Virus record (IMG/VR): IMGVR_UViG_3300025853_000694
Coordinates: 1-23,209 of that record
Strand: one strand, 5' to 3'
Origin: a virus
DNA length: 23,209 nucleotides
The translations under genes and the position numbers were made by a program. The notes beneath the pieces are model-generated. The model ran no database searches and was not told the origin of the DNA. It saw only the letters and a list, made by a program, of their open reading frames with translations. Below, piece by piece: positions 109 through 18,382 of this stretch; the first letter of the stretch is position 1, and the number at the start of each line of letters is the position of its first letter.

Positions 109-426
109 ATGACAACTAAACAAGATTTACTCAAACTTGTAGAAACTTTAGACGCCGCGATAGAAGAGAATACCAAAGCGTTAAAACCACCTACGCTTAA
201 AGCCAGAATAGCGGAGTTTATATCCCATAGGACAAAAACGTTTAAGCTAACGAAAGCACAAAAGAAAGCGCAACATGCTTTATGGAAAAAAGAACTAGAA
301 GAATTACCTAAACTGCGTGCCGCACGCAAAGCCAAAGCCGAGAAACTACGGGCTAGAAAAGAAAGAGTGCTAAAAGCTCTTAGCGTTTGGATAGACGCAG
401 GGGATGTAATAGGGAGCTACGAATGA
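109..426 (+). CDS. Small basic coiled-coil-like protein, unknown function
   Basis: This is a 105-residue, Lys/Arg/Glu-rich protein. It is almost entirely predicted helical from composition (KAQKKAQHALWKKELEEL in the middle, then KAKAEKLRARKERVLKAL). It has no signal peptide, membrane segment, cysteine cluster or enzyme motif that I recognise. AGGAA precedes the ATG at a usable distance. Its TGA overlaps the ATG of the XRE-sigma gene (ATGA at 423-426), so the two are probably translationally coupled. A role as an accessory or DNA/RNA-binding partner is only a guess from its charge and neighbour. Confidence 0.75.
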   Translation: MTTKQDLLKLVETLDAAIEENTKALKPPTLKARIAEFISHRTKTFKLTKAQKKAQHALWKKELEELPKLRAARKAKAEKLRARKERVLKALSVWIDAGDVIGSYE

Positions 427-1199
427 AAGACTACAGAGTAGAAGTAAAAGTAAAAAACAACTACTTGTTTTCGATGATGAAGTCTTACGGTTTAAGCAAT
501 GGGGCTGAATTGAGTAGAGCTAGCGGCTTAGACCAAACGTCTATAGGCAGGGTACTTAATTTAAAAGCACCGGCCCTTACTAAAACAGGAAAACCAACTG
601 CAACTGCACAAACCCTTTGTGATTTTTTTAGTTGCAGCGTGTACGACCTTTTCCCACCACAACATATAAACGACCCCCTACAAACTAACTCCGGTTCAAT
701 AGAAGCCAACATGGCTGAATTAACCTCTAGCAACTTATTAGCAGGTGGAACTGACCCGCTACAAATACTAAGCGACGGTGATGCGACAGACCTTGTGGCG
801 GCAGCGGTAGGAAAATTAACTAGCAGAGAGAAAACAATAGTCGATGCCCGCTTTGGATTAAACGGTGAGGGAGAAAAAAATTTAGTCCAAATAGGAAAAG
901 AACTTAATCTATCGTCCACTAGGGTTAGGCAAATAGAACAGAAAGCCTTACGAAAACTTAGAACGTATTCAACAGCTTCTTTAGCTTACGCACACAGTGA
1001 CGAGGCAGGTGAGCATAGAGAAGAAATAATAATCCAAAACGCAATGGCTATTGCTAAGGGAGCGGCAAGGGCAGACGCAAAACGAAAGCAAGAGATAAAA
1101 GAACGGATAGCTTTCAGGGAAAAAGTAAAAAAAGAAGCAGAAGAAAGTCGGAACAGAAAATTAAAAGCTCTCAAAGAAGAGCTGGGCGAGAATTTTTGA
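423..1199 (+). CDS. XRE-type HTH fused to sigma-70 region 4; putative transcription regulator
   Basis: The protein has 258 residues from the ATG at 423, which overlaps the previous stop; an in-frame TTG at 387 lacks this support. Residues ~15-80 look like an XRE/Cro helix-turn-helix: GAELSRASGLDQTSIGRVLN, then a helical stretch ending CSVYDLFPP. Residues ~131-180 are a convincing sigma-70 region 4: LTSREKTIVDARFGL, then IGKELNLSSTRVRQIEQKAL and RKLR, the block that in sigma factors contacts the -35 element. The tail (200-258) is a charged helix. Sigma regions 2 and 3 are absent, so it cannot melt a promoter as a normal sigma factor does. By analogy it may bind the phage operator through the XRE domain and core RNA polymerase through region 4. 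It sits among the earliest + strand genes, fitting a switch regulator. Activator, anti-sigma-like or alternative sigma roles all remain possible. Confidence 0.85.
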   Translation: MKDYRVEVKVKNNYLFSMMKSYGLSNGAELSRASGLDQTSIGRVLNLKAPALTKTGKPTATAQTLCDFFSCSVYDLFPPQHINDPLQTNSGSIEANMAELTSSNLLAGGTDPLQILSDGDATDLVAAAVGKLTSREKTIVDARFGLNGEGEKNLVQIGKELNLSSTRVRQIEQKALRKLRTYSTASLAYAHSDEAGEHREEIIIQNAMAIAKGAARADAKRKQEIKERIAFREKVKKEAEESRNRKLKALKEELGENF

Positions 1200-1230: not shown

Positions 1231-1515
1231 ATGCTGACACCAAGCGGGCTGAGAGACATAGCCAAGAACAAGACCCTTACAACGGAAGAGACGGGCGAAA
1301 CGACTAGCGCCTTAGACAGACAGACTGGCGGCAACCACTACAAGAACATGGTAATCCAACCTGCTGAGTACGCAGAGAAGAACGGGTTGTCATTGCTCGA
1401 AGGTAATGTGGTTAAGTACATATCCAGATGGAAGTTGAAGGGAAAACCGTTAGAAGACTTAACCAAGGCGAAGCACTGCATCGACTTACTAATTGAGATA
1501 CACGGGGTAGAGTGA
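1231..1515 (+). CDS. DUF3310 family phage protein
   Basis: This 94-residue protein matches the DUF3310 family, small phage proteins sometimes labelled nucleotide kinase without firm proof. The recognisable core spans residues 33-89: GGNHYKNMVIQPAEYAEKNG, LLEGNVVKYISRWKLKG and LEDLTKAKHCIDLLIE. The HYK, IQP, GNVxKYxxR and DLxKAxxxxDxLIE blocks are the family hallmarks. The first ~30 residues are Thr/Glu-rich and variable in this family. AGAAGGAAAA lies just upstream of the ATG. The biochemical function is unknown; its presence among early genes is typical of phages. Confidence 0.85.
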   Translation: MLTPSGLRDIAKNKTLTTEETGETTSALDRQTGGNHYKNMVIQPAEYAEKNGLSLLEGNVVKYISRWKLKGKPLEDLTKAKHCIDLLIEIHGVE

Positions 1516-2889: not shown

Positions 2890-4761
2890 GTGAATATTAT
2901 AACAATAGATTTTGAAACCTATTACGACAAACAGTTTTCGCTAAGTAAACTAACAACCGAGCAGTACGTACGAAGCCCAGAGTTTGAAGTGATAGGACTG
3001 AGCGTTAAAGTTAACGCAGGGGAAACAGATTGGATAAGCGGCCCGTTCAATGCAGTTAAAGAGTATTTACATGATAACTATGACTGGGAAAACTCTGCTG
3101 TTCTTGCTCATAACACTATGTTTGATGGTGCTATTCTTAGTTGGCTGTTTGATATTCACCCTAAGCTATACCTTGATACGCTGTGTATGGGCCGCGCATT
3201 ACATGGTACGGAAGTCGGTGGCTCTCTTAAGTACTTGGCTGACATGTACGAGATCGGGGAAAAAGGTAACGAAGTAGGCAACGCTATAGGTAAACGCCGT
3301 CGTGACTTTACTGAAGACGAACTCGAACGTTACGGCGACTACTGCATACAAGACGTTGAGCTTACGTATCAGTTGTTTGAGATATTCCTGAAAGTATTCC
3401 CGAAGAAAGAACTAAAAGTAATCGACATGACGCTGCGTATGTTTATCGACCCCGTACTGGAGTTGGACGTAGGTAAACTTGAAGACCATTTGGATACGCT
3501 ACAAGAGCAGAAAGAACACCTACTTGCAGAGTGTGGTATCGCAAAAGAAGAACTCATGTCTAATCCTAAGTTCGCTAAGGCACTTGAGGCGCTGGGCGTT
3601 GTGCCACCAATGAAAACAAGTTTGCGTACGGGTAAGGAAGCCTTTGCGTTTGCCAAGAGTGACGAGGGGTTCAAAGCCCTACAGGAGCATGACGATGCGC
3701 GAGTACAAGCCCTAGTAGCTGCAAGAATAGGTTTGAAGAGCACACTAGAAGAGACACGCACCGAGAGGTTTATCGACATTGGTATTCGGGGCACGCTGCC
3801 CGTGCCTATCCGATACTATGCCGCACACACAGGAAGGTTTGGCGGGTCTGATAAGATAAACCTACAAAACCTACCCTCACGTGGGCCAAATGCAAAGGTA
3901 TTGAAAGCATGTATTTGCGCCCCTAAAGGCTACACCTTGATCGAAGCTGACTCTGCGCAGATAGAGGCTCGCGTATTAGCTTGGTTAGCAGGACAAGTTG
4001 ACCTAGTTCGAGCATTCGAGAACGGCGAAGACGTGTACAAGAAGATGGCGGCTACTATCTATAATAAGAAAGAAGAAGACATAACACCCGCCGAACGCTT
4101 CATCGGCAAGACTACTATTCTAGGTGCGGGCTACGGTATGGGTGCCGCTAAGTTCCGCGACCAGTTAAAGGGTATGGGTGTCGAGGTGACTAAGATAGAC
4201 GAGGAAGAATGTAAGCGCATTATACGGGTGTACCGCAGTGCGAATGGAGGCATATCTCAGTTATGGCGAGACGCACAAAACGCTCTGATGGGGATGTACC
4301 AAGGTGAACGGTACGGTGTAGGTAAAGCTGGGGTGCTAAAGGTGTTACCAGAAGTTAATGGTATACGTCTGCCTTCCGGTTTGATTATGCGCTACGACGA
4401 CCTGAAAGCCGAGGATGGTGAGATGGGCGTACAATTTTCGTACAAAACACGTAGGGGTAGAGTAAATATCTACGGCGGTAAGGTGATAGAAAACGTCTGC
4501 CAAGGCATTGCAAGATGTGTAATGACAGACCAGATGTTATTGATTTCAAAGCGGTATCCTATACTTCTTACTGTACATGACTCTGTGGTATGCTGTGTTC
4601 CAGATAGCGAAGTTGACGAGGCTGCGGCCTATGTTGGCGAATGTATGCGACACACACCCGATTGGGCACAGGGCCTTCCGGTGCGTGGTGACGTGGAAAC
4701 TGGAAAAACTTACGGAGAATGTACTGAATGGGTAAACCCACATGGTCATTTAGCAGCATAA
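2890..4761 (+). CDS. polA-like: Family A DNA polymerase with 3'-5' exonuclease domain
   Basis: The product is a 623-residue replicative polymerase of phage size, beginning at a GTG preceded by AGGAAAAG. The DnaQ-type exonuclease domain fills residues ~1-170: Exo I DFETYY (D7, E9), Exo II LAHNTMFDG (N75, D79) and Exo III YCIQDVELTY (D155). The polymerase domain (~300-610) shows TGRFGG, LQNLPSR, motif A EADSAQIEARVLAWLAG (D354), motif B RFIGKTTILGAGYG (R403, K407, Y415) and motif C LLTVHDSVVCC (H563, D564). Motif B carries Leu411 at the position of E. coli Pol I Phe762. Motif C has Ser565 where Glu is usual. All catalytic aspartates are present, so it should be active. It overlaps the downstream nuclease gene by 34 nt. 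Confidence 0.96.
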   Translation: MNIITIDFETYYDKQFSLSKLTTEQYVRSPEFEVIGLSVKVNAGETDWISGPFNAVKEYLHDNYDWENSAVLAHNTMFDGAILSWLFDIHPKLYLDTLCMGRALHGTEVGGSLKYLADMYEIGEKGNEVGNAIGKRRRDFTEDELERYGDYCIQDVELTYQLFEIFLKVFPKKELKVIDMTLRMFIDPVLELDVGKLEDHLDTLQEQKEHLLAECGIAKEELMSNPKFAKALEALGVVPPMKTSLRTGKEAFAFAKSDEGFKALQEHDDARVQALVAARIGLKSTLEETRTERFIDIGIRGTLPVPIRYYAAHTGRFGGSDKINLQNLPSRGPNAKVLKACICAPKGYTLIEADSAQIEARVLAWLAGQVDLVRAFENGEDVYKKMAATIYNKKEEDITPAERFIGKTTILGAGYGMGAAKFRDQLKGMGVEVTKIDEEECKRIIRVYRSANGGISQLWRDAQNALMGMYQGERYGVGKAGVLKVLPEVNGIRLPSGLIMRYDDLKAEDGEMGVQFSYKTRRGRVNIYGGKVIENVCQGIARCVMTDQMLLISKRYPILLTVHDSVVCCVPDSEVDEAAAYVGECMRHTPDWAQGLPVRGDVETGKTYGECTEWVNPHGHLAA

Positions 4762-5405
4762 AGACGTTCGATCAATGCCCCAAAAAGTATTACCACACCA
4801 AGGTACTGAAGGACTACAAAGAAGACTTTAATACCGAAGCCATACTGTACGGTAACGAGTTCCACGAAGCTGCCGAGGTGTATGTCAGAGGAGATGTAGA
4901 AGAGTTAGACCCAAGGTTTGACTACGCGCTAACCGCGCTAGATAGACTTAAAAACATGAAAGGCGAGAAGCTCTGCGAGTATAAGATGGGGCTGACTGAG
5001 AACCTTGAACCCTGCGGATTCTTTGCTGATAACGTATGGTTCAGGGGTGTTTCCGACCTTACGATACTAGATAGAGAAGCCGGTGTAGCTAAGGTGTTTG
5101 ACTATAAGACCGGTAAGTCTGCGAAGTATGCAGACAAGGGGCAGCTCGAACTGATGGCGTTAGCTACGTTCAAGCACTTCCCTGAGATAAAAGTAGTGAA
5201 GGGCGGCCTGCTCTTCGTGGTATGTAACGCGTTTATCAAAGAGACGTACACTATCGAGAACGAACCAGACTTATGGAAGAAGTGGCTTGGCGAGTACGGC
5301 AAGCTAGAGAAAGCATTTGAGGTAGATACTTGGAATGCTAAACCCACAGGGCTTTGCCGCGCATGGTGCGTGGTACTAGAGTGCCCACATAACGGTAAGA
5401 GGTAA
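4728..5405 (+). CDS. PD-(D/E)XK nuclease, Cas4/RecB-like, probable Fe-S cluster
   Basis: This 225-residue protein is of the PD-(D/E)XK exonuclease superfamily (Cas4/RecB/AddB-like). Visible features are an N-terminal FSSIKTFDQCPKKYYH block with C17, H46 in NEFHEAAEVY, D110 in RGVSDLTI, D125 and K127 in FDYKTGK, and Q139 in the QLELMAL motif. A C-terminal cluster C210-x3-C214-x4-C219, together with C17, resembles the four-cysteine 4Fe-4S site of Cas4 and AddB proteins. The start is inside the polymerase gene (34-nt overlap), with GGAG about 10 nt upstream, and the N-terminal motif supports this start. It probably processes DNA ends for phage recombination or replication. There are no CRISPR genes nearby, so a Cas4 role in adaptation is not implied. 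Confidence 0.88.
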   Translation: MGKPTWSFSSIKTFDQCPKKYYHTKVLKDYKEDFNTEAILYGNEFHEAAEVYVRGDVEELDPRFDYALTALDRLKNMKGEKLCEYKMGLTENLEPCGFFADNVWFRGVSDLTILDREAGVAKVFDYKTGKSAKYADKGQLELMALATFKHFPEIKVVKGGLLFVVCNAFIKETYTIENEPDLWKKWLGEYGKLEKAFEVDTWNAKPTGLCRAWCVVLECPHNGKR

Positions 5406-5409
5406 CGAC

Positions 5410-5694
5410 ATGCCGTACAAGAATCCGAAAGATAGACCGAAGCAGAAGAACAAGCCTGTAGGTAGTCCTGAGTTTGAAGCTCGGATGGAACGCCAACGCG
5501 CTCGACGTAAGATGGATAAAGAAGGTAAGGACGCTAACAAGAACGGCAAAGCCGACAAACGCGAAGGCAAAGACATTAGCCACAAGAAAGCTTTAAGCAA
5601 AGGTGGTAGTAACAAGGACGGCGTGACTGTAGAGAGCCGCAGTAAGAACCGCGCTCGAAACTATAAAAAGAAAAAGAAAACAACTAAAAAGTAG
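5410..5694 (+). CDS. Small, highly basic HNH-like/DNA-binding protein
   Basis: This 94-residue, very Lys/Arg-rich protein has AGAGG upstream of its ATG, four bases after the previous stop. The first half is a basic helix (FEARMERQRARRKMDKEGKD). The second half contains DISHKKALSKGGSNKDG and then SRSKNRARNYK. That arrangement (D-x-x-H, GGSN, later N) is like the core of minimal HNH nuclease motifs in phage proteins, but the usual upstream Cys/His zinc ligands and a second clear histidine are missing. It could be a reduced HNH nuclease or a DNA-binding protein. It lies between two DNA-processing enzymes. Confidence 0.7.
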   Translation: MPYKNPKDRPKQKNKPVGSPEFEARMERQRARRKMDKEGKDANKNGKADKREGKDISHKKALSKGGSNKDGVTVESRSKNRARNYKKKKKTTKK

Positions 5695-5708
5695 GTGAGA
5701 TATAGTAA

Positions 5709-7250
5709 ATGCAAATAATTGATAACAGGGGCTTGCTCTTGCGGCTTCGCAATCCTGCGAAGATTACAACAGCAATACCAACAAGCAAGGCAGTGGGGGA
5801 CCACGGCGTTCTGGTTAAATGGGGTGTGGACGAGGCTCGTGTACTTAAGAACTTAAATGTAAAGGACGTACCCTCACCTATTATGGGTATGTACGATTGG
5901 CCCGGGCGGTATAAACCTTTCGAGCACCAAAAAACAACCGCTTCGTTTATGACTATGAACCGCCGGTCCTTCTGCTTTAACGAGCAGGGCACAGGTAAAA
6001 CTGCTTCTGCTATCTGGGCGGCTGACTTTTTAATGACACAGAAGTTGGTGAAACGCGTACTGATTATCTGTCCTCTATCTATTATGGACTCCGCGTGGCG
6101 TACTGACTTGTTTAGTTTTGCCATGCACCGCACCGTAGATATAGCGCATGGGGTCAAGAAGAAACGCCAAGAGATAATTAACGGCGACGCCGAGTTTGTC
6201 ATTATCAACTACGACGGTGTAGAGATAGTGAAGGAAGAAGTGGCGAATGGCGGGTTTGATCTTATCATTGTGGATGAGGCAACCCACTATAAGAATGCAC
6301 AATCTAAGCGTTGGAAAGTACTGGCTAGTGTAATAAAACCAGAAACGTGGCTGTGGCTAATGACCGGTACGCCTGCCGCACAGTCACCAGTTGACGCATA
6401 CGGGCTAGCCAAACTTGTTAATCCTAAAGGCGTGCCTAGATTCTTTGGGGCTTTCCGCGAGATGGTAATGCACAAGGTGACGCAGTTTAAGTGGGCACCT
6501 AAGCCGACCGCTACTGATACGGTGTTCAATGCGTTACAACCTGCAATACGTTTTACTAAAGAGCAATGCTTAGACCTGCCAGAGATGACTTACGTTAAGC
6601 GCGAAGTGGACCTAACGGCGCAACAGAAGAAGTACTACGAAATTCTACGTAAGCAAATGATGGCTACTGCGGACGGAGAACAAATTACTTCGGCTAATGC
6701 TGCGGTTAACATGAATAAGTTACTACAGATTTCGTGTGGCGCGGTCTATACGGATACTGGCGAGACTATAGAATTTGACGTTAAGAATCGCTACAAAGTT
6801 CTACGGGAAGTAATAGACGAATCTAGCCAGAAGATACTTATCTTTGTGCCGTTCAAGCATGTCATCAGTATTCTTAAAGAAAAGCTGACTAAAGACGGTA
6901 TAACAAGTGCGGTTATAAACGGCGAAGTGTCAGCACAAAAACGTACTGCTATCTTCAAACAGTTCCAAGAAACCAACGACCCCCGAGTACTTATCATACA
7001 ACCGCAAGCTGCTGCGCATGGCGTAACGCTTACTGCGGCAAACACAATCGTATGGTGGGGACCGACATCTTCCCTAGAAACTTACGCTCAAGCTAATGCG
7101 CGTGTACACAGATCAGGTCAAAAGCACCCGTGTACTGTCGTGCAACTGCAAGGATCGAAGGTAGAGAAACACATATACAAGATGCTAGACCAACGTATTA
7201 ACGTGCACACAAAAATGATTGATTTATACCAAGATATACTTGAAATATAA
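5709..7250 (+). CDS. SNF2-type superfamily 2 DNA helicase/translocase
   Basis: The 513-residue protein has the two RecA-like lobes of SF2/SNF2 ATPases. Residues ~72-100 hold the Q-like FEHQKTTASF and Walker A NEQGTGKTAS (K97, T98). Walker B is LIIVDEATHYKN (D189, E190), motif III is LMTGTPAAQSP (~217-227), and motif VI is NARVHRSGQKH (~463-473, arginine fingers R465 and R468). Motif IV/V elements lie around IFVPFKH and QAAAHGVTLT. The size is the compact phage version without accessory domains. It probably remodels DNA or supports replication and recombination beside the polymerase and nuclease. A weak GGTGAG precedes the ATG. A sigma-70-type promoter overlaps its last codons. Confidence 0.93.
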   Translation: MQIIDNRGLLLRLRNPAKITTAIPTSKAVGDHGVLVKWGVDEARVLKNLNVKDVPSPIMGMYDWPGRYKPFEHQKTTASFMTMNRRSFCFNEQGTGKTASAIWAADFLMTQKLVKRVLIICPLSIMDSAWRTDLFSFAMHRTVDIAHGVKKKRQEIINGDAEFVIINYDGVEIVKEEVANGGFDLIIVDEATHYKNAQSKRWKVLASVIKPETWLWLMTGTPAAQSPVDAYGLAKLVNPKGVPRFFGAFREMVMHKVTQFKWAPKPTATDTVFNALQPAIRFTKEQCLDLPEMTYVKREVDLTAQQKKYYEILRKQMMATADGEQITSANAAVNMNKLLQISCGAVYTDTGETIEFDVKNRYKVLREVIDESSQKILIFVPFKHVISILKEKLTKDGITSAVINGEVSAQKRTAIFKQFQETNDPRVLIIQPQAAAHGVTLTAANTIVWWGPTSSLETYAQANARVHRSGQKHPCTVVQLQGSKVEKHIYKMLDQRINVHTKMIDLYQDILEI

Positions 7251-7268
7251 GCTAAACTGCACTATATT
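7240..7268 (+). promoter_or_regulatory. Predicted sigma-70-type promoter TTGAAA-N17-TATATT
   Basis: TTGAAA at 7240-7245 and TATATT at 7263-7268 are separated by exactly 17 bp. Each hexamer differs from the host consensus at one base. The box pair begins inside the end of the helicase gene and would start RNA near 7275, in the 52-nt gap before the start at 7303. It would give the Gp157-like, HTH and SSB-like genes transcription independent of the upstream operon. Confidence 0.6.
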
Positions 7269-7289
7269 AAATAAAACATAACTATAAAT

Positions 7290-7293
7290 GGAG
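7290..7293 (+). promoter_or_regulatory. GGAG ribosome-binding site deciding the start at 7303
   Basis: GGAG sits 9 nt before the ATG at 7303. The in-frame ATG at 7288 overlaps this GGAG and has no Shine-Dalgarno sequence of its own, so 7303 is preferred. Confidence 0.65.
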
Positions 7294-7302
7294 TATGATG
7301 CC

Positions 7303-7707
7303 ATGACAGACGCTGTTGTGCCGGACCTTGACCGTCTCGTTTCTGTGTACGTAAAGATTCGAGATAAGAAGTTAGAGTTAGCGGCGGAATTTAAAGAGAA
7401 AGAAAAAGAGCTTGACGCCAAGTTAGACAAGCTAAAAGAAGTATTACTAGAACATTGTAAAGAAACTGGAATCGAATCTGTGAAGACCGCTTCCGGTACG
7501 TTCTGGCGCACCCAAAAGAAGCGTTTTTGGACAAGCGACTGGGAGGCAATGAGTAAGTTTATTGTAGAGAACGAAGCAGTAGACTTACTAGAGAAACGCA
7601 TTAGCCAAGGTAACATGCGGCAGTTTCTTGAAGAAAACCCCGAACAACATCCGCCGGGGCTAAATGCGGATAACGAGTACACCATAACCGTACGGAGAAA
7701 AAAATGA
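7303..7707 (+). CDS. Gp157-like phage protein, coiled coil N-terminus
   Basis: The product has 134 residues from the ATG at 7303. The N-terminal ~55 residues are a charged coiled coil (KIRDKKLELAAEFKEKEKEL, then LDKLKEVLLEHCKETG). Next come a short conserved block (SVKTASGTFWRTQKKRF), a helical part (DLLEKRISQGNMRQFLEEN), PPGLN and a basic C-terminus (YTITVRRKK). This order (helical pair, then a beta segment about giving or deriving a substrate) resembles siphovirus Gp157-type proteins, often found near SSB and recombination genes. The molecular role is not established. It starts after a predicted promoter, and its TGA overlaps the next ATG (ATGA at 7704-7707). Confidence 0.7.
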   Translation: MTDAVVPDLDRLVSVYVKIRDKKLELAAEFKEKEKELDAKLDKLKEVLLEHCKETGIESVKTASGTFWRTQKKRFWTSDWEAMSKFIVENEAVDLLEKRISQGNMRQFLEENPEQHPPGLNADNEYTITVRRKK

Positions 7708-7952
7708 CCGAGTTAGAAAGCTACGTGCCTGTAGAGGAAGTGGCGGACTATCTTTCTGTAAAAGTGAGCACTATCCGACAGTGGGTAAACAAGGGGTTCA
7801 TACCAAAAAGTACCTATATAAAAGTAGGGTACACGTACCGCTTTAACCTTCCTGCCGTGATAGAGGCGCTTAGACAAGAAGAACCTGCCCCCGATCCGAC
7901 ACAGATAACCGAACAACTAGAGTTAGACTTTGATGAGGATGATGATTTATGA
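7704..7952 (+). CDS. Excisionase/MerR-like HTH DNA-binding protein
   Basis: The first ~58 of 82 residues form a winged helix-turn-helix of the excisionase/HTH_17 type: YVPVEEVADYLSVKVSTIRQ, WVNKGFIPKS, a YTYRF wing and LPAVIEALR. A short acidic tail follows (ELDFDEDDDL). It binds DNA as a small regulator or architectural factor. There is no integrase in the window, so a true excisionase role cannot be shown. ATGA overlaps join it to both neighbours (start at 7704, stop at 7950-7952), placing it in one coupled unit with the Gp157-like and SSB-like genes. Confidence 0.8.
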   Translation: MTELESYVPVEEVADYLSVKVSTIRQWVNKGFIPKSTYIKVGYTYRFNLPAVIEALRQEEPAPDPTQITEQLELDFDEDDDL

Positions 7953-8875
7953 GCGAATTAGCTTTGTTTGACAATATGCCTGCCGAATACAAAGAGCTGC
8001 TGGCCCAACTAGAGCCTGATAAAAACGCGTCAGGTGGTGGAAATAAAACTGGCACTAACCGTCTTAGTATTCGCGGTGGGGTGTTCCGTAAGGTAGTTAA
8101 CGGACAGGAAGTAGGAGAGCTTGAAGCCCGAGCAATAAATATAGTTATTGTTAAAACTTCCCCTATTTCCCGTATGTACTACGCTAGCCAATACACCGCA
8201 GGTGCTAATAATCCTCCGGCTTGTTGGTCTGCCGATTCTGGTGGGGGTAAGCCTTCTGGGGATGTACCAAGCGATACGCTTCAATCTGCGGCATGTTTTG
8301 ATTGCCCTCAGAACATAAAAGGTTCTGGTCAAGGCCAGTCTCGTGCGTGTAGGTATCAACAACGTGTAGCTGTAATGTTGACTGATAGCGATGGCAAATT
8401 GAAGTCTAACTCGGTGTACCAGTTGTCTCTACCTGCTACTAGTATATTTGGCGATGACAAAAAGAAGATGGGGCTACAAACTTACGCCCGTCTAATCGAA
8501 GCGCAGAGAGCACCACTTGCTTCGATAGTTACAGAGCTACGTTTTGATACTGATAGTTCTACTCCTAAGCTGTGTTTCAAACCGGTACGTGTACTTGCCG
8601 AAGACGAAATAGGTATGGCAGTAGCCGCCCAAAAGGATGAGGCTACGCTAAAACTAGTTACGCTATCTATAAAAGCAAAGCAAGAGACTAGCGTTCCACA
8701 ACTAACTGATGATAAAGTTCCAAGCCCTGCTTCAGAAACCCCGGCGTTGTTTTCTGACGAGGAAGAGGAAGAGGAGCAGGTAGAAGAGCCAAAGGTTAAG
8801 GTGTCTAAGAAAAAGAAAGATGCCCCTAAACCAGATGTTGATTTGGCCTCACTGTTGGATGAGTTTGATGACTAA
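7949..8875 (+). CDS. Probable ssDNA-binding protein with zinc-type cysteines and acidic tail
   Basis: The 308-residue protein has a mixed core (residues ~35-245), a long acidic/basic linker (DEEEEEEQVEE, then KVSKKKKD) and a terminal DLASLLDEFDD. A disordered acidic C-terminal tail is the hallmark of phage and bacterial SSBs (T7 gp2.5, T4 gp32, bacterial SSB), where it recruits replication proteins. Four cysteines (C92, C116, C119, C134) are spaced to bind a zinc ion, as gp32 does with a different ligand set. Its position between an HTH protein and the primase-helicase fits. The fold is not recognisable by eye, so the assignment rests on the tail, cysteines and context. It is followed by a GC hairpin. 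Confidence 0.65.
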   Translation: MSELALFDNMPAEYKELLAQLEPDKNASGGGNKTGTNRLSIRGGVFRKVVNGQEVGELEARAINIVIVKTSPISRMYYASQYTAGANNPPACWSADSGGGKPSGDVPSDTLQSAACFDCPQNIKGSGQGQSRACRYQQRVAVMLTDSDGKLKSNSVYQLSLPATSIFGDDKKKMGLQTYARLIEAQRAPLASIVTELRFDTDSSTPKLCFKPVRVLAEDEIGMAVAAQKDEATLKLVTLSIKAKQETSVPQLTDDKVPSPASETPALFSDEEEEEEQVEEPKVKVSKKKKDAPKPDVDLASLLDEFDD

Positions 8876-8881
8876 ACCACG

Positions 8882-8901
8882 CGGGTGCCTCCGGGCACCC
8901 G
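8882..8901 (+). terminator. GC-rich hairpin after the SSB-like gene, terminator-like
   Basis: CGGGTGCC (8882-8889) and GGCACCCG (8894-8901) form a perfect 8-bp stem with a 4-nt loop, 6 nt after the stop. There is no T-run after it, so it may be a partial terminator or an mRNA-stabilising hairpin. It is followed directly by the 14-nt repeated element at 8902-8915. Confidence 0.6.
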
Positions 8902-8915
8902 TAACTCTCTATGAC
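8902..8915 (+). repeat. 14-nt element TAACTCTCTATGAC, copy 1
   Basis: The element begins at the base after the GC hairpin and ends 9 nt before the ATGATG start of the primase gene. An exact copy lies on the - strand at 12157-12170, also directly after a GC hairpin and also followed 8 nt later by ATGATG. The shared placement suggests a phage-specific signal (promoter, processing or antitermination site). Function unknown. Confidence 0.6.
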
Positions 8916-8924
8916 ATGGATTAA

Positions 8925-11885
8925 ATGATGACAGACACCAAACAGTTTTTAAGTACGGTGTTGAGTGATGAGGGGTATTACCACGTAGCAGGAATTGCGA
9001 AGAACAAACCTATAAAAGAAAAGTTTTACGATTCGCTAGATGCTGCTATTGAGACTGCAAACAACTTTAACGAAGAAGGGCGAGACTCTTATTTTGCGCT
9101 AGGTGTGTTCCTAGATGCTACTAAGGGCCGTACTGCGCAAAACGTGCGTGGGATAAAATCGCTGTTCCTCGATTTAGATTGTGGCGAAGGCAAACCCTAC
9201 AGCACCCAACAAGATGCACTTATTGCGCTAAAGGCTTGGTATAAGAAGTACGAGCTACCTCGCCCTACAGTAGTTAACTCAGGGCGGGGGCTGCACGTAT
9301 ATTGGGCGCTTGACCGAGCTTACACACGCGAAGAATGGCTACCTACTGCTAAAGGGCTAAAGGCTACGTGTTTACAGGACGGGTTGCATATTGACGCCGT
9401 TGTAACTGCGGACGCGGCTAGGCTACTGCGTGTACCTAATACACGTAACTTCAAAGACGTACCACCAAAAAACACCAAGGTAATTGTTTTAGGTAAACCG
9501 GTAGTCTTAGAGGAGTTTGCGGCTAAGTTACCTACAAGCTTGATACCAGTACTTGCCCCTAGAGAGTACACAAGCGCAGATAATGCGGACATGGCTAACG
9601 CAAAAGGCGGGGAGAGTAAGTACACATACAAGTTTGCTAACATACTAATGAAGACCGCCCAAGGTAGTGGTTGTGCACATATAGATAAAGCTATACGTAA
9701 ACCAGACGAGATTACTTATCCAGAGTGGACCCATGCACTTTCTATAGCAAAGCGGTGCGACACGGACGGTATAGTAGGGCAACCTGCAATACATTTAATA
9801 TCAAAGGGTTACAGTAAATACAGTGTTGATGAAACAGATAAGATAGCGTCGTCTATTGATTACCCGCACCTATGCACTACTTTCGACAGTGATTGTCCCG
9901 GCCTGTGTGAGGGATGCCCAAACAACGGCAAAATAAAAAGCCCTATCACGCTATGCCGAGAGCTTAAGTTAGCTGAAAGTGACGAAGTAGAAGTACGCGG
10001 ATACGACGAACCCGAAGAGTTTTATGACGAGCGTGCAGAAGAAGTTGCTATTGCACCTAGCGTTAGCGCACCTAGCAATGCCGACGGTGGTGACATACCG
10101 CCAAGCAAACCTAAGAAAGAATCTGTGCTAGAAAAGATTAAGATACCGGGCTATCCTCCCGGTTACGCACGGCCAGAAGGTGGTGGGGTAGCAAAAATAT
10201 CGCACGATAAAGACGGCAACCGTGAAGAAAAAGTTCTGTGTCCTGACAATCTGTATGTGAAAAAGCGGATGGTGGATGTAGACGGGCCGTGCTATGAGAT
10301 AGGACACACCAGTGATTTTGAAGGTGAGCGTACCTTTGTAGCGTCTCAGAAAGAATTGATGTCTACCGAAACCTTTCGGGGTGTGATGAACTCTAACGAC
10401 GTACTAGTAATGCCTAGTACACAGAAGGACCTTATGGAATATATAGCTGCTTGGATTACTAAACTTAAGCCCGAAGGACCGCCCATTCAAGTTAAGTCTC
10501 AGTTTGGTTGGACAGAGGGGTTAAAGTCTTTTGTGATAGGGGACAAAGAGATATTTGCTAATCGGGTAGAGAACAGTCCGGCAGGGTCTCGCACTGCACA
10601 GTACATGCACATGTTCAAGAAGAAGGGCACGCTAGAGAAATGGAAAGAGTTAGCACAGTTCTACGGACAGGAAGGGTTTGAGCAGCATCAGTATATGTTC
10701 GGGCTTTCTTTTGGTTCGCCATTAATGGAGTTTATGTCGGGTATATCAGGTTGTATCTATAACTTGAACAGTCCTGAAACAGGTGTAGGTAAAACCACAG
10801 GTATGTGGGGCGGGGCTTCAGTATGGGGCAGCCACAAAAAGTTAGTGCTTATAGGCAAAGATACGCCTAACTCAGCTTGGAACCGTGCCGAAGTTATAAA
10901 AAACTTACCGCTGTACATTGATGAGGTATCTAACTACAAGCCCCAACCCGCTAGTGATTTTTGTTACGCCATTAGTGACGGGGTACAAAAGAACCGTATG
11001 AGTGGTAAGGGGGAAAACGCTGAGCGATACAGAGGAGAACCTTGGGCGTTAAACTGCGGTACTAGCGGCAATAGCAGTTTAACGGAAGTGGCGGGTGAAT
11101 ATAGGTCATCTCCAAAAGGTGAAACAGGGCGAGTAGTTAGCCACAGTGCTACAAAACTACTGCGTGGCGCATCTGACACACTGCGTGCAAATGACTTAAA
11201 CGATCAATTAGATGAAAACTACGGACATGCTGGACCGTTGTTTATACAGCACATACTAAAAAACAAAGCTGCCGCAAAGAAACTTACTTTAGATACACGC
11301 TCAGATATTGTTAAAGAGATAGACGGTGAACCACAAGAACGCTTTTGGATAGCACAAGGCGCTACTGTTTACGCAGGGTGTACGATAGCAAAACAAATTG
11401 GGCTTATAGATTGGGACTTAGACAACCTATGGGACTGGATAATTGCAAAAATAAAGGAGCAAAGAGCAGGTTTAACGCAAATGGATATGGACATACACGA
11501 CATAATATCTCAGTTCTATATGGACAACGTACGGTCGATACTACGAATTACTAGTACAGCCGACGCTAGAGACCCAGAATTACAGAATATAATCCGCCCC
11601 GACATGCAGGACATGCCTAACTTTAAGTTTGTAGCGCGGCATGAAACCGACATAGGCAAACTCTTTATACGCGGACCGGCACTTAAATCGTGGATTAACG
11701 AACACAAGTACACAGAAAGTGCGGTTAAGGCTTTGATATTTTCGCAAATGGATGGGCGTTATGGCAAAAAGAGGATGGGTAAAGGTACTAAAATGGACAT
11801 AGGCACGACGCATGTAATCGAGTGTACTTTTAACAATGATCTTATTGAAATGCCGGAACTTGCTGATGAGGTTAAAGCTAAATGA
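8925..11885 (+). CDS. Primase-polymerase/DUF927 helicase fusion protein
   Basis: This 986-residue replication protein has two parts. Residues ~1-185 look like an archaeo-eukaryotic-type primase (PrimPol): LFLDLDCGEGK with D83 and D85, VVNSGRGLHVYWALD with H124, and DAARLLRVPNTRNFK. A possible zinc-binding region (CDTDG, then CTTFDSDCPGLCEGC) follows at about 275-335. The C-terminal half matches the DUF927 ATPase type, with Walker A SPETGVGKTT (K623, T624) and Walker B LPLYIDEVSN (D666, E667). It should prime and unwind DNA at the phage fork. Tandem ATGs open the gene, with no good Shine-Dalgarno sequence, after a hairpin and the 14-nt element. Confidence 0.88.
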   Translation: MMTDTKQFLSTVLSDEGYYHVAGIAKNKPIKEKFYDSLDAAIETANNFNEEGRDSYFALGVFLDATKGRTAQNVRGIKSLFLDLDCGEGKPYSTQQDALIALKAWYKKYELPRPTVVNSGRGLHVYWALDRAYTREEWLPTAKGLKATCLQDGLHIDAVVTADAARLLRVPNTRNFKDVPPKNTKVIVLGKPVVLEEFAAKLPTSLIPVLAPREYTSADNADMANAKGGESKYTYKFANILMKTAQGSGCAHIDKAIRKPDEITYPEWTHALSIAKRCDTDGIVGQPAIHLISKGYSKYSVDETDKIASSIDYPHLCTTFDSDCPGLCEGCPNNGKIKSPITLCRELKLAESDEVEVRGYDEPEEFYDERAEEVAIAPSVSAPSNADGGDIPPSKPKKESVLEKIKIPGYPPGYARPEGGGVAKISHDKDGNREEKVLCPDNLYVKKRMVDVDGPCYEIGHTSDFEGERTFVASQKELMSTETFRGVMNSNDVLVMPSTQKDLMEYIAAWITKLKPEGPPIQVKSQFGWTEGLKSFVIGDKEIFANRVENSPAGSRTAQYMHMFKKKGTLEKWKELAQFYGQEGFEQHQYMFGLSFGSPLMEFMSGISGCIYNLNSPETGVGKTTGMWGGASVWGSHKKLVLIGKDTPNSAWNRAEVIKNLPLYIDEVSNYKPQPASDFCYAISDGVQKNRMSGKGENAERYRGEPWALNCGTSGNSSLTEVAGEYRSSPKGETGRVVSHSATKLLRGASDTLRANDLNDQLDENYGHAGPLFIQHILKNKAAAKKLTLDTRSDIVKEIDGEPQERFWIAQGATVYAGCTIAKQIGLIDWDLDNLWDWIIAKIKEQRAGLTQMDMDIHDIISQFYMDNVRSILRITSTADARDPELQNIIRPDMQDMPNFKFVARHETDIGKLFIRGPALKSWINEHKYTESAVKALIFSQMDGRYGKKRMGKGTKMDIGTTHVIECTFNNDLIEMPELADEVKAK

Positions 11886-12202: not shown

Positions 12203-15200
12203 CTATTCGTCTTCATACAATCTATCCGTATATTGCCGTCTCGATTCTCTTAGTTCCCTAATAAACCTGCGGTCTGCCACGTTACCACCAAGTTGTTCTG
12301 CTATCGCTGAGCCTCTAGCGCGAGTGGTTATGGACTGCCTTAAGGTGTCCCCACTTATTGCCACGTTGCCGTGCTTCTGGTTAAACTCTCGTATGTCCTC
12401 TATCACCTGCTCTTTGCCTGCCTCGTCACCGTTGTTGTGCGCAAAAGCAAACCGATCTAGCAGCCCTTTACGCATACGGCCAACACCGGTAATTACGCGG
12501 CGGTCTCTAGCTAGCTTGTCCTGCTCAGCACGGAACTTAGAGGGGGCAAAGCCCATCGTCTGTAGGATCGCATCTCCTACGGTAACCTCTCCGACAATAG
12601 CATCCCCGCGCGTAGTCTCGTAGCCCTCTGTAGCGTACCGATAAGCTTTTTTACCGTTGGATATAGCAGTGGGTAACATACCTTCTACGGCCCGCGTGTC
12701 GTTCCTAGGGTCGTCATCGACGAAAAGACGGTAGCCGCTAGTACCCAGTCGTATGGCAATACCTATCGTAGGTCCACCGAAAGATTCTAGCCCGTATTGG
12801 ATATTGTTTTCTGGGCGGTAGTTACCTTTGTCTCGAATCAGTAGGTTAGTTAGGGCAACACGATCAGTTACGTCAGCGCCAAAATATTTAGCAACCGCAC
12901 CATAGTAATAACCTTCGCCTATCGTTTTAGCTACTATAGTGTTTACGTCGTCTTCGTCCTCACCCAAAAACATGTTAGCGATAGCCGCGACGAAGCCGTA
13001 GAAGGGCACGCCTTTAGCGCCAACTAGCGCCGCGCCGGTAGCATTCATGTATATAAACGCGTTACGCAAAGCACGGTCTTCTTCTATCTGCTCTGGCGTA
13101 CGGGTTGCCCCTCTGGCCTGACGCTGTATGGCGTTTAGCATACTCATTTGGATATACAGTATCTGGGCAGGGAAACGCTTAAACTGGTAGATGATGCTAC
13201 CCACCCCACTCTGCGCCCAACGAGGAGCGGTGGCGAGTAATGCTGAGCTGTTTGCGTACTCCATAAACTCAATAGCTATCTGCGCGGCTTTTTCTCCGTG
13301 GGCTTCGATCTGCTCGGGAGTTAGTTTGGCTATAGGCTTACCGTACTTCTTTTCCATCTCTAAGATGTAGGCGCTGCCCGCTGTAATCTGACGGATAGCC
13401 CGTTCCGAATGGTTGAAAATGAAGCTAGACACGTAGGCTATCTTGTTTATTACAGGCGCAGCAGGGTTTTCGTAGTCTGCGTTTTCAGACGATATAGTAC
13501 GGGTGTCTAAGCCCAGTTCTTTAAGTTTCGCTACTAGTGGCCCAAGCAGCCCACCTTCTTTATTTGCGTAACTAAACCCACCTAGCTCAGATATATCGCC
13601 TACCTCACCTTCTTCTGTAATGCCCTCGCGCGTAACGTCGCCAAAGGATTGCAGGTACATAGTTGAAGCGCGAGACATAGCCGAGGTAGCGTTAACTAAA
13701 CCGAACTTACCGGCCAGTAGTGGCCCCACGACCATAGGTAGGGTAGACATGTTTACCGCAGCAGAGGATACGTTAAAACCTAGCGTGTAGATAAACGATG
13801 AAGAGCGCAGTATACGCGCCCAGTTAGGCAGGTTCGGGTTTTTAACGAACTCTAAATAGCTAGATAGTTTGCCCGGCAAGGCGTTTGTTTCGGCAGAAGT
13901 ACCTACGAGCGCCTTCATTGCATCTTGTACTAAACGGTCGTCTGCGTTAGCGCCCGCCGCAGCCTCTTCACGTATTTGCTTGGCGACAAGCGCAAAGTCT
14001 GCATCAAAGGACAGATTCGCAAGGCTGTTAATCAGTCTAGGGTACGTGTCCTCGAAAGCTTTAATAGCCTGTGTTTCGTAGCCTGCAAACCCTTCCCGGC
14101 CCATGTGCCCCTGTATTAGATTTTGTTCGGGTAACGACTTTATTAGCACGTCGTCAACAAAATCAATCGCCCCTTGAGGTAGGGTAACTTGCTTCTCTAC
14201 GTCGTTTCCGTTTGCGTCTTTCTCAACGAGCGTAACCGGCTTTTTAAGTTCGGCAAGTAGGTCAACTAAGAATCCTGTAGGGACATCAAACCCTTGAGAC
14301 GACATATCCGGACGGGGTTTTGGTTTAACAGACTCCGGCACTACATCCGTACGAGCTTTAAGGGCGTTTATAGCTACCTCGCGGAGACCTTTGCTCGGGT
14401 GCGAGCTAACCCCATACTTGACCTGCCCGTCTCTATCTTTGTACTCATACTCAACCCAGAATTCGCCCGAGCGATTAAGCGGGAAATAGGGGTCAATAAC
14501 GCCAGAGGTAAGCAACTTTCTAAACACTCTGTCTTTAACTGTAGCTTTAACACCGGCTTCTATGTCTAGTTTGTCTAACTTATCGTCAATAGCGGCGAGA
14601 ATATCCGCGTTAATTTGTTTATACATATCCCGCATTTCGCGGTAGGCGGTCTTTTGTGTGGGCGACAGTTTGTTGTACAGCCTTTGCGCTTCCTCGTACG
14701 CAGTAATGCGCTCTTGGGTAGTGTTTAGTTTCCTAACCCCGGCGAGGATGTTTGTCTTATCGAGAGCTTCTACTGCCTCATCGCGTTGCGCTTCCGTAGG
14801 GAACGTTACCCTTTCTATTACATTACCGTTGGTGTCCGTGTAGCTGTAACCAAAGTTTTTATAGCGGGCAGCCGGTTTAGTAGGGTCTACTTCCTCGATA
14901 GTGCTAAGCCCTACTAAGGTGTTGTAGGTTTCTATTGCTACACTATCGTCTTTAAACGCTTCTTTGAAATCCCTTAGCTTATTGCCAAAGTTCTTCATTA
15001 ACTCGTTGCGCTTGCCGTCTTGCTTACGGATAAGATTTTGAAAGTCTGCTGCTGACGGCAACTTTTCTTTAATGAGACCGACTATGTTGTCCAAAGTCAT
15101 AGCGTTAATCATGGTCACACGAGACTTAGCACTTAGCTCTTGTGCGTTACCCAGTATCCAATCTTTGGAATCTTTCAGCGTTTTAAGTTTAGCAAGCGCC

Positions 15201-18200
15201 GTACCGCCGCCCATCATTTCGTAGGCCGCGCGAAGTGCGTCACCATCGGACAGTTTTTGTTCTACTACTGTAGCGTCACGGGTTGATATGGACGCTGCAA
15301 CGATTAAGTTTATAAAGTCTAACGCTGCGTCTGCTACGGTTTCAGTTTCAGTGGTGGGCATACCGAATAGGCGTTTAATAGCATTAGTAAACCGTTGCCA
15401 CGCAGTTAACTTAGACCCAGTGGGCTTATGCGCAGCTAGTGTGGCTCTGAAATCGGGGTTAGTGTATACCTCGGCAACAAAGTCTTTTAGTGATTCTGAG
15501 CCATAGGTACCCGGTATTTCGCCTTTAACGTCGTTAAACAACTTAGTGAGCTGTATGGTAAACGGATGGCCCGGATTATCGAGAGTCTTTGCAGTAACCG
15601 CGTGCGCAACTTCGTGCAAGATAGTATGGCTGCTTAACGGAGCGTTGATGTCTATTTGGATTAAGTCCTGAGAAGCGGTGTAACTACCCGCAAACTGGTC
15701 ACCGCGTGGAGTCTCAAGCGTTTCTACAAACTCAACCTTAGTTGTGCCTATAGCTTTTTCTAAATTGCTAGCAAGCTCGCGGACCATTTTGTTAGGGTTG
15801 TCTAGCGCCAACTGTTTCAGTGCGCCTTTTAAATCTCCATCAAGTAACTTATTGTTAGTCTCCGCCGAAACCAAAGGCATACTAGCAGCCACCGCATCAG
15901 AGCGCAGGTAGTCTATGACCCCCGCAATGTCATCTACGTTAGCTCCATAGACATCCATCTCTTGTAGTACTTTTTGTGTTAGCGCGTCATCTTGTTTCTC
16001 AGCCTGCTCTATATACTCAGCTTCAAGCCGGTCTCTCGCATCCTGCTCTTCGGTGAACTTTTCTACAAACTCTTCGCCTCTGTTTTCCGCACGCTCGTAG
16101 AACGCCTTGTACTCGTCCAGTTTGGTGTTTGCCTCGGGGCTTAGGTTGTTACGTACCCATGTAGTAGCTGCTTCCGCACGGCGCATTTCTTTCTTTGGCA
16201 CTTCCTTGGGGGCTGTTTTTTTAAGGGCTACTGGCTCAGTACTTTCAAGAGCGATAGCACGTAGTGCTTGGTCTGCATCCGCAGTATTCTGCGTGTAATG
16301 GGATATAGCGGCTTTCGGGGCATACTTACCACGGGTTGTCGGTACGGGTTTAGCTTTTTGTGCAGACAGTTTCTCTGCGTCCGTAGTAGGTAGCGCAACG
16401 GTAGGTGCGGGGGGTTGCGCAGTAGGTGCGGCAGTAGGTGTAGTAGTTTCGGCTACAGGCGCAGTAGGCTCAACGGCAGCGGGTGCAGGTGCGGCAGTAG
16501 GTTTAGGCGTAGTTGTTTTTTGCGCAGGTGTAGCTGAAGTTTCTGCGTTTAAGTACGTTTCTATACTTCTTTTGGCAGCGTTACTTAGCTTGTTGTTTGC
16601 GGCTAATTTGGTTAGCGCCGCTAGTACTTCTGGACTACGTACGTCCTTACCCTTTAGCCCTTTTTGCCTACGGATAGGAGCTAACTTCGCAATGTTAAGG
16701 CCGTCGAAGAAATCTTTAGTAACGGGCACTATAGGTTTGGGTTTGGCTTCTTTTATGAATGCTTCTAGCGGCGCTACCCCTGCGGCACGTTCCCTACGCA
16801 GTTTAGTTACAGCAAAAATTTCTTGTAATTCTGTAGGGGAGGCGTTGGTATTTGTAAAGTCTTGGCCGTCTAGTATATTTTTAAACGCCCGCGCACCTTC
16901 TTCTAGCGTTTGGATTTCCGGATTTTGGAGGACGGTGGTTAACGTAGTAGTGCGTTGCTCAGGAGTAGGTTCCGCAGCTATTAACGCTTCTATTTCTTCC
17001 GTTTCAGCTTTGTCTTTTTCTTTAAGCGCAGCGTCTTCTTCCGCCTGCATTCTTTTAAGTTCGGCTTCTTCTGCTTTTGCTGTGGCTATTTTTTGCGTTA
17101 GTAGGGCAGCTTCTTCTCTTTCTATTGCGGCGTACGCGTCTTCGTCTAATAACGCTTCGATCTGCGCCGTTTCTTCTGCGTCTTCAATAAGGTCTGTTTC
17201 TGGAGTAGGCTCAGATGGAGTTTCACGACTACGTAGTATGTCTACTTCGTTAGCTACCGCTGCGGCAAACGCATCAGGACTGAGGGGCGCTTCACTATAA
17301 CGGGCTTGTACAGCAGCTTCTGCCTCTACTTGGATGGGGTCTTCTTCAGTTACACCCGCAAGTTCCTCTACATCAAGCAAACGCTCTGGCTCTGGACCTT
17401 CACGTTCAGGGGCGTCCGGGAACATATCCCGAGTTTCGCCTTCAGGTGTAGCTGCCATTACCGCTTCTTCAGCGGCTTTTTCTTCCTCGGCTTTCCTAGC
17501 AGCTCGGCGTTGTTGACCGGGAAGTATGGCTTCGGCTAGACCTTGTAACAGACCACCTACACCTGCGCCTAAACCAAAGGACTCGCCAGTATCGGTAAAC
17601 ACACCACGCTCTGGGTCGTACACCCCACGTTGAATAAGGTTCTGTCCTACTTCACTAAGGGCTTCTTGGATACCCTCGTCGATAGCCGCCTTGCCTACAC
17701 GTCCTAGGGGCGCTCTTTCTGCGGCTTGAGAAATCTTTCGGATTAGGCTGCCACTAAGTTCTTTCCCTACTTCGTCTGCTTTTGGGCCAAGTACTTTTCT
17801 AAAACGCTCAGCAATCCTACCCGGACCGAACATCTCGAATGCGCCCGGTATGGTACCTAGCCCAGCGGCCTTACTTATCTCTTCTTCAGTAGCTCCGGCA
17901 GCTACGGCGCGTTGGGCAGCTTCACCTGCACCGGCTCCTACACCTAAACCAGTACCAAGCGCGTACGCTCCACGACCCAAAAGAGCAGGAGCACTTAGTG
18001 CGCCAGCGGCAAGGAAAGGTACGGTAGAACCCACACCCCGAACGAGGTCTAGGTAGGTGTTATCTTCATAGGCAGCTTCAGGAGCAAGGAAGTCTTGTAC
18101 CCCACCACCAATTTCGGCGATGCGAGCGCGGGCAGCTTGTTCAGCTTCTTCAGGTAGGATAAACGCAGCACCAGTCGCAGCCGATTCCAGTAGGCCCGCA

Positions 18201-18382
18201 GCACCGCCAAGCAGTGCCTTACCCGTCTCAAGCCCGTACCCCAGTAGTGAGGTTTCTTCAGGCTCGGCGGCAGTGGGGTAGGCGTCAGGGAACTTTGCCG
18301 AGATTATGCCTTTTATTTCTTCCCTAGGCATGTCATCTGGAAACCTAACTAACCTGCCATCTGGGGCTTTTACTACGGGCAT
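12203..18382 (-). CDS. Giant polyvalent internal virion protein with zinc-metallopeptidase motif
   Basis: The protein has 2,059 residues, a size typical of packaged and ejected phage proteins. The N-terminal block DGRLVRFPDDMPREEIKGII (8-27) is a motif I associate with such proteins. Gly/Ala-rich hydrophobic segments at ~46-76, 112-155 and 269-288 suggest membrane insertion. A charged coiled coil lies at ~400-470 and a Pro/Ala/Thr linker at ~608-668. Next is a zincin motif, HEVAH at 923-927 in ILHEVAHAVT, with a probable third ligand E971 in DFVAEVY. More hydrophobic stretches are at ~1525-1556 and 1771-1804. The conserved-looking tail (TTRGDAIVGEV, then LQTMGFAPSKF) is like PLxRFG-type giants. 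GGAG lies 7 nt before the ATG. It probably enters the cell with the DNA; the peptidase may cut host wall or inhibitor proteins. Confidence 0.85.
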   Translation of the reverse strand: MPVVKAPDGRLVRFPDDMPREEIKGIISAKFPDAYPTAAEPEETSLLGYGLETGKALLGGAAGLLESAATGAAFILPEEAEQAARARIAEIGGGVQDFLAPEAAYEDNTYLDLVRGVGSTVPFLAAGALSAPALLGRGAYALGTGLGVGAGAGEAAQRAVAAGATEEEISKAAGLGTIPGAFEMFGPGRIAERFRKVLGPKADEVGKELSGSLIRKISQAAERAPLGRVGKAAIDEGIQEALSEVGQNLIQRGVYDPERGVFTDTGESFGLGAGVGGLLQGLAEAILPGQQRRAARKAEEEKAAEEAVMAATPEGETRDMFPDAPEREGPEPERLLDVEELAGVTEEDPIQVEAEAAVQARYSEAPLSPDAFAAAVANEVDILRSRETPSEPTPETDLIEDAEETAQIEALLDEDAYAAIEREEAALLTQKIATAKAEEAELKRMQAEEDAALKEKDKAETEEIEALIAAEPTPEQRTTTLTTVLQNPEIQTLEEGARAFKNILDGQDFTNTNASPTELQEIFAVTKLRRERAAGVAPLEAFIKEAKPKPIVPVTKDFFDGLNIAKLAPIRRQKGLKGKDVRSPEVLAALTKLAANNKLSNAAKRSIETYLNAETSATPAQKTTTPKPTAAPAPAAVEPTAPVAETTTPTAAPTAQPPAPTVALPTTDAEKLSAQKAKPVPTTRGKYAPKAAISHYTQNTADADQALRAIALESTEPVALKKTAPKEVPKKEMRRAEAATTWVRNNLSPEANTKLDEYKAFYERAENRGEEFVEKFTEEQDARDRLEAEYIEQAEKQDDALTQKVLQEMDVYGANVDDIAGVIDYLRSDAVAASMPLVSAETNNKLLDGDLKGALKQLALDNPNKMVRELASNLEKAIGTTKVEFVETLETPRGDQFAGSYTASQDLIQIDINAPLSSHTILHEVAHAVTAKTLDNPGHPFTIQLTKLFNDVKGEIPGTYGSESLKDFVAEVYTNPDFRATLAAHKPTGSKLTAWQRFTNAIKRLFGMPTTETETVADAALDFINLIVAASISTRDATVVEQKLSDGDALRAAYEMMGGGTALAKLKTLKDSKDWILGNAQELSAKSRVTMINAMTLDNIVGLIKEKLPSAADFQNLIRKQDGKRNELMKNFGNKLRDFKEAFKDDSVAIETYNTLVGLSTIEEVDPTKPAARYKNFGYSYTDTNGNVIERVTFPTEAQRDEAVEALDKTNILAGVRKLNTTQERITAYEEAQRLYNKLSPTQKTAYREMRDMYKQINADILAAIDDKLDKLDIEAGVKATVKDRVFRKLLTSGVIDPYFPLNRSGEFWVEYEYKDRDGQVKYGVSSHPSKGLREVAINALKARTDVVPESVKPKPRPDMSSQGFDVPTGFLVDLLAELKKPVTLVEKDANGNDVEKQVTLPQGAIDFVDDVLIKSLPEQNLIQGHMGREGFAGYETQAIKAFEDTYPRLINSLANLSFDADFALVAKQIREEAAAGANADDRLVQDAMKALVGTSAETNALPGKLSSYLEFVKNPNLPNWARILRSSSFIYTLGFNVSSAAVNMSTLPMVVGPLLAGKFGLVNATSAMSRASTMYLQSFGDVTREGITEEGEVGDISELGGFSYANKEGGLLGPLVAKLKELGLDTRTISSENADYENPAAPVINKIAYVSSFIFNHSERAIRQITAGSAYILEMEKKYGKPIAKLTPEQIEAHGEKAAQIAIEFMEYANSSALLATAPRWAQSGVGSIIYQFKRFPAQILYIQMSMLNAIQRQARGATRTPEQIEEDRALRNAFIYMNATGAALVGAKGVPFYGFVAAIANMFLGEDEDDVNTIVAKTIGEGYYYGAVAKYFGADVTDRVALTNLLIRDKGNYRPENNIQYGLESFGGPTIGIAIRLGTSGYRLFVDDDPRNDTRAVEGMLPTAISNGKKAYRYATEGYETTRGDAIVGEVTVGDAILQTMGFAPSKFRAEQDKLARDRRVITGVGRMRKGLLDRFAFAHNNGDEAGKEQVIEDIREFNQKHGNVAISGDTLRQSITTRARGSAIAEQLGGNVADRRFIRELRESRRQYTDRLYEDE
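16380..16560 (-). repeat. Low-complexity Pro/Ala/Thr linker region in the giant gene
   Basis: The DNA is built of imperfect short GTAGGTGCGG-like units, encoding about 60 residues of Pro, Ala and Thr (TAAPTAQPPAPTVALP and similar). It separates the helical N-terminal third from the metallopeptidase part and is likely a flexible linker. Such tracts are prone to length variation between relatives. Confidence 0.75.

Follow-up and report, generated by a model that had tools for sequence, protein, structure and literature searches.

The window analysed here is the whole 23,209-nucleotide stretch of the IMG/VR virus record IMGVR_UViG_3300025853_000694 (positions 1 to 23,209). One of its first genes codes for a protein of 258 residues that combines a Cro/C1-type HTH domain with a sigma-70 region 4 (hereafter called the XRE-sigma4 fusion). 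The features of this locus are the following:

109-426, plus strand: g1, a basic, helical protein of 105 residues, whose stop codon overlaps the ATG of the fusion gene as ATGA
423-1199, plus strand: XRE-sigma4 fusion gene, an open reading frame with profile and structure matches and under purifying selection
456-671, plus strand: Cro/C1-type HTH domain, residues 12-83 (HTH_26 in relatives, AlphaFold helices, Foldseek matches to XRE/CI proteins)
501-524 and 534-557, plus strand: HTH helices, residues 27-34 and 38-45 (AlphaFold)
747-806, plus strand: end of the linker, residues 109-128, resembling the 3.2/4.1 junction of primary sigma factors (start of the RpoS alignment)
807-968, plus strand: sigma-70 region 4, residues 129-182 (PF04545; Foldseek matches to sigma domain 4 structures)
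912-920, plus strand: residues 164-166 (S-S-T), equivalent by residue comparison to T583-R584-E585 of RpoD, the positions that read -35 bases
1020-1193, plus strand: predicted long C-terminal helix, residues 200-257 (AlphaFold), not conserved in wider family alignments
1231-1515, plus strand: DUF3310 protein (PF11753, 1.3e-8; synteny), in the shared early/replication gene run
2890-11885, plus strand: replication module, downstream of the fusion gene (profile matches), with the next four genes
2890-4761, plus strand: PolA
4728-5405, plus strand: PD-(D/E)XK exonuclease
5709-7250, plus strand: SNF2 helicase
8925-11885, plus strand: DUF927 primase/helicase-like protein

The fusion gene is co-directional with the early and replication genes, and the virion genes are oriented in the opposite direction. 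Among the latter, a minus-strand gene (12203-18382) codes for a virion-type protein of 2059 residues with the large polyvalent protein domain LPD39 (1.9e-10); such proteins typically occur in phages whose injected internal proteins are very long. The replication module is common to Rhizobium phage RHph_TM3_14A and, partly, to KPP25, and we did not find the fusion gene in the stretches of these two phages that were searched. A small HTH_17/MerR-like, excisionase-like protein of 82 residues (7704-7952, E=2e-8) is also encoded within the replication run; no integrase was seen in the window. The upstream gene g1 is coupled to the fusion gene in 14 of 14 close relatives and is also found without it, for example on contigs L149 and L113. 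As a candidate region-2 partner it was discarded, given its lack of sigma-2 similarity, the absence of a structural match for its predicted fold of helices or coiled coil, and its occurrence independently of the fusion gene.

A first-pass annotation of this DNA had described an XRE-like N-terminal domain joined to a clear sigma-70 region 4, without regions 2 and 3, and our analyses bear out this description. The Pfam profile PF04545 (Sigma70_r4) matches residues 129-180 with E=3.9e-14 (52.3 bits for a cut-off of 24.1), and the motif IGKELNLSSTRVRQIEQKAL singled out by the annotation corresponds to residues 157-176, with RKLR at 177-180. The best PDB match of the fusion protein is RpoS (6.6e-10), from residue 109 on, which includes the junction that precedes region 4; residues 109-181 align with both RpoS and RpoD. 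In this end of the linker, the segment LLAGGTDPLQI is invariant in the alignment of close relatives. Pfam searches yielded no match to sigma regions 2 and 3 in the fusion protein even at E<=10. The N-terminal domain is weak by Pfam, PF13443 (HTH_26) matching residues 18-77 under its cut-off (E=0.0025, 18.4 bits for a cut-off of 22), and the same weak match is present in 8 of 8 relatives, one of which also matches HTH_3 at 1.6e-4.

The domain is clear in structure predictions. The AlphaFold model was built on 15 relatives and has a mean pLDDT of only 66; its well-predicted parts are the two domains, and it leaves their mutual arrangement undefined. The N-terminal part, which the annotation's reading required to model as an XRE fold, shows five helices in XRE order (residues 13-21, 27-34, 38-45, 60-69 and 73-76) in a block with pLDDT values of 79-89, and the region-4 helices are predicted at residues 120-190. 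Foldseek matched the two halves separately, one to sigma domain 4 (4g6d_A, TM 0.79 by target length, rmsd 1.9) and the other to Cro/C1 and CI proteins (A0A8S5M295, TM 0.70 by target length, rmsd 2.1).

The architecture had been thought uncommon, and the annotation had suggested looking for the same domain order in other phage genomes. Pattern and profile scans of IMG/VR showed that it recurs in 34 distinct proteins (19 clusters at a 70% identity threshold), whose phage backgrounds include at least three unrelated ones. Since it is conserved in so many distinct proteins, the two-domain layout is not due to chance: XRE plus region 4 without regions 2 and 3 is the fixed layout of a recurrent family in uncultured phages. 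A scan with the single protein gave 13 loci, and an alignment-based scan retrieved more distant ones, down to 24% identity. The conserved start of the family, M[KR][DE][YF]xV..[IV].[IV][KR]NN, searched as a degenerate DNA pattern, matched 51 contigs, nearly all with the same two-domain protein. The background of the window group comprises PolA, the PD-(D/E)XK exonuclease, the SNF2 helicase and the DUF927 protein; that of L021, read from its open reading frames, comprises a terminase and a recombination/replication run; and in L024 the fusion gene is the last of its run, followed by late genes that point the other way.

Divergence of the HTH goes along with that of region 4 (Mantel r=0.49, p=0.0005, on cluster representatives), and in the window group the two domains share one open reading frame with the sole exception of a split copy (L016, the same contig as L064). 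In that copy, an insert of ~526 bp (L016 2717-3242) lies between the two domains; it carries a small XRE-type open reading frame, has ~12 bp of target on both flanks and may be either a real insertion or an assembly chimaera. No full-length relatives were found among cultured phages, none were found on plasmids, and two scans of bacterial genome contigs, with patterns limited to the MKDYRVE[IV] branch, gave no relative. The best structural match among viral models is BFVD A0A0F7L6V6 from an uncultured marine virus, which Foldseek aligns over the whole protein (E=1.3e-7, 22% identity). UniProt labels it only as 'Sigma-70 region 3 domain protein', with HTH and function unannotated; it is probably a member of the family.

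We compared region 4 with that of RpoD, either in the 34 proteins or as averages over the 19 clusters, using the core-binding positions of Sharp et al. as quoted in PMC4943231. These positions are largely kept: E555 in 29 of 34 proteins, R562 in 31, F or Y at 563 in 32, a hydrophobic residue at 565 in 31, G577 in 29, and L or M at 598 in all 34, the equivalents of F563 and L598 in the window protein being F144 and L179. In RpoD, R584 reads base -31 of the -35 element and E585 reads base -33 (PMC2613000). R584 is present in only 9 of the 34 family members and E585 in 18, and the window protein has S165 and T166 at these positions. Averaged over clusters, identity to RpoD is 0.68 at the core-binding positions quoted, 0.45 at R584/E585 and 0.50 for the whole of region 4. 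The contrast between 0.68 and 0.50 is moderate, and conservation of the core-binding positions partly reflects the fold, because several of them are also structural. The other DNA or backbone contacts (R586, R588, Q589 and K593) reach an identity of 0.79; as they are as well kept as the core positions, region 4 probably still touches DNA.

The fusion gene is under purifying selection overall, with pairwise dN/dS values of 0.27-0.61. Among nine close relatives, and with few codons in each class, pN/pS is 0.32 for the HTH domain, 0.45 for the linker and 0.67 for all of region 4; it is raised to 0.78 in the HTH recognition helix, and within region 4 it is 1.38 for codons 164-169 and 0.31 for codons 170-182. 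Nonsynonymous change is highest at codons 164-166. A permutation test on the ratio (p=0.013) shows only a faster evolution of region 4 relative to the HTH; relaxed selection would fit, and so would diversifying selection.

The transcription setting was examined in the window and in L002, a contig that belongs to the window's phage population (identity of 99.99% along 9.2 kb) and reaches 7.6 kb further left. The early genes of L002 have near-perfect TTGACA/TATAAT sigma-70 promoters (e.g., L002 3123-3150), one of them with 12/12 matches, and it is therefore the host sigma-70 polymerase that must be steered. In the window, promoter-like sites are fewer than in shuffles, a count that carries little information. 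No Sigma70_r2 (PF04542) was found in 20 related records, all of them fragments, and no T7-type single-subunit RNA polymerase in ten records, possibly fragments, with T7 as a positive control; the latter polymerase was thus set aside as an alternative transcription route. From these two results the phages seem dependent on host RNA polymerase, keeping in mind that fragmentary records may lack the part of a genome that codes for a region-2 partner or for a phage polymerase. The fusion gene is present in ~11 of 54 comparable loci of the window's phage group, which are marked by a conserved RNA element after polA (see below). It is thus accessory in this group and not a general late-gene switch there.

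The annotation had proposed a division of labour, with region 4 holding or redirecting host RNA polymerase and the XRE domain choosing the operator. This idea is partly supported, as it fits the kept core-binding positions and the drifting -35-reading positions. We tentatively favour, as a quite possible reading of the sequences, that the protein, tethered to DNA, stands in for sigma-4 on the host beta-flap and either redirects sigma-70 transcription or blocks it. It would unite a DNA-binding domain of the Cro/C1 type with a sigma-4 domain derived from a primary sigma factor. The latter would dock on the beta-flap tip of host RNA polymerase and displace region 4 of the host sigma, and the HTH would meanwhile bind phage DNA. 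Devoid of region 2, the protein should be unable to open promoters alone, and the -10 element would still be melted by host sigma regions 2 and 3. We infer that the polymerase would become poorer at -35-dependent promoters of the host and of the early phage genes, and would be recruited to phage sites. It is conceivable, if doubtful, that such proteins make up a widespread phage 'sigma-4 swap' class, in which only region 4 of the host holoenzyme is replaced, host regions 2 and 3 serving the -10 element and the phage Cro/C1 HTH standing in for -35 recognition.

The same residues could be read as those of a double-HTH repressor, in which region 4 only adds a second DNA-binding domain; placed on a -35-like sequence, it would obstruct the promoter without contacting polymerase. 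The strong conservation of R586, R588, Q589 and K593 agrees with it, as do the codon changes, which concentrate at residues 164-166, where DNA is read, and are also raised in the recognition helix of the HTH; such a pattern would follow if every phage had sites of its own to recognise. However, the surface core-binding residues E555 and R562, from the list quoted above, are kept, and isolated sigma-4 binds DNA poorly without core; we thus regard a double-HTH repressor as unlikely.

Region 4 could also compete with host sigma-4 for the flap and shut off host genes, the HTH merely holding the protein on phage DNA or regulating its own gene, in the manner of the repressing mode of T4 gp33 or of Xp10 P7. 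Phage inhibitors that bind the flap are established (gp33, PMC2988020; P7, PMC3985653), and an accessory, variable gene suits a takeover factor. Such an inhibitor would nevertheless have no need for a conserved sequence-specific HTH, whereas the HTH and the linker are the most constrained parts of the protein, which makes a host transcription inhibitor quite unlikely. It is very improbable that the protein pairs with a separate region-2 subunit to form a two-subunit sigma factor, as in the SigO-RsoA pair of Bacillus subtilis: split sigma factors do exist (PMC10028694; T4 gp55/gp33), but the related records hold no Sigma70_r2, even if a diverged, gp55-like region 2 could escape the search, and the neighbour g1 has no similarity to sigma-2 and is present elsewhere without the fusion gene.

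The beta-flap and sigma-4 are known points at which phages take hold of host RNA polymerase, as with AsiA, gp33, P7 and lambda Q. The closest parallel to the tethered sigma-4 substitute that we favour is T4 gp33, a late-transcription coactivator and sigma-4 mimic that, like the role predicted here, sits at the sigma-4 site of the flap without region 2. It shows that a phage protein can occupy the place of sigma-4 and alter promoter use (PMC2988020, PMC7892883); it also represses basal transcription and has neither sequence similarity to sigma nor DNA sequence recognition (PMC2988020). Unlike gp33, the fusion protein is truly homologous to sigma-4 and has an HTH of its own; its flap binding is a prediction. 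Xp10 P7, for its part, displaces sigma-70 via the flap (PMC3985653). Split sigma factors of the SigO-RsoA kind likewise have a polypeptide that contains region 4 and lacks region 2, but the fusion is phage-encoded and joined to a Cro/C1-type HTH, and no region-2 partner was found in the fragment records. Relative to RpoD and RpoS, the protein matches the sigma domain 4 structure, but regions 1 to 3 are missing and the -35-reading residues are changed. With Cro/C1-type phage repressors it shares the N-terminal fold, whereas its C-terminal half is sigma-4 rather than a dimerisation or peptidase domain.

What is new is a genuine sigma-4 homologue joined to a separate HTH. In the literature searched, which covered few subscription papers, we found no description of a phage protein with a real sigma-4 beside its own operator-reading domain. 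If flap docking is true, these proteins represent a natural domain swap on the holoenzyme and offer a simple test of whether region 4 is exchangeable without region 2. With its many members, the family would allow changes of the -35-reading residues to be related to promoter sequences.

A search for operators focused on palindromes. L002 has three copies of an 18-bp palindrome, TGCGGACACGTGTCCGCA (223-240, 764-781 and 3194-3211). L013 encodes a fusion protein with 97% identity, but its palindrome at ~1550-1575, at the corresponding position between the promoter and the start codon, is a different one, TTGTTATGCGCCGCATAACAA. We therefore rejected TGCGGACACGTGTCCGCA as the operator of the fusion protein, since the palindrome tracks something else, and the search identified no operator for this protein. 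These palindromes are perfect and located in 5' untranslated regions or near gene starts; they are identical within one phage and differ between very close phages, those of L006-L008 sharing the core CTAACAATTGTTAG. They are perhaps mRNA hairpins or operators of another, variable repressor.

Directly after polA, we identified a conserved non-coding element at ~50 distinct loci; the pattern GGGCGGTGGGN{15,32}AACACCCNCAGT matches 79 IMG/VR contigs. Its instances include the following:

L006 6228-6374, L008 3257-3414, L017 1320-1466 and ~50 more: conserved RNA element
L002 7170-7383: RNA element of the window's own phage, ~270 nt left of window position 1

This DNA was considered as a leader or control region of the fusion gene and rejected, as it follows polA and is mostly present without the fusion gene. 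In 22 diverse sequences, the element shows a long, strongly covarying helix, in which 8 of 42 pairs are changed on both sides; 97% of its cells are paired, compared with ~45% when the helix is slid. Rfam gave no match for it even at E<=5, and from its sequences it looks like an undescribed structured RNA. In several relatives (L007, L008, L011 and L016 were compared), polA lies upstream of the pair formed by g1 and the fusion gene, and in the window's phage it lies downstream; within the module, polA has been relocated and the RNA element has not.
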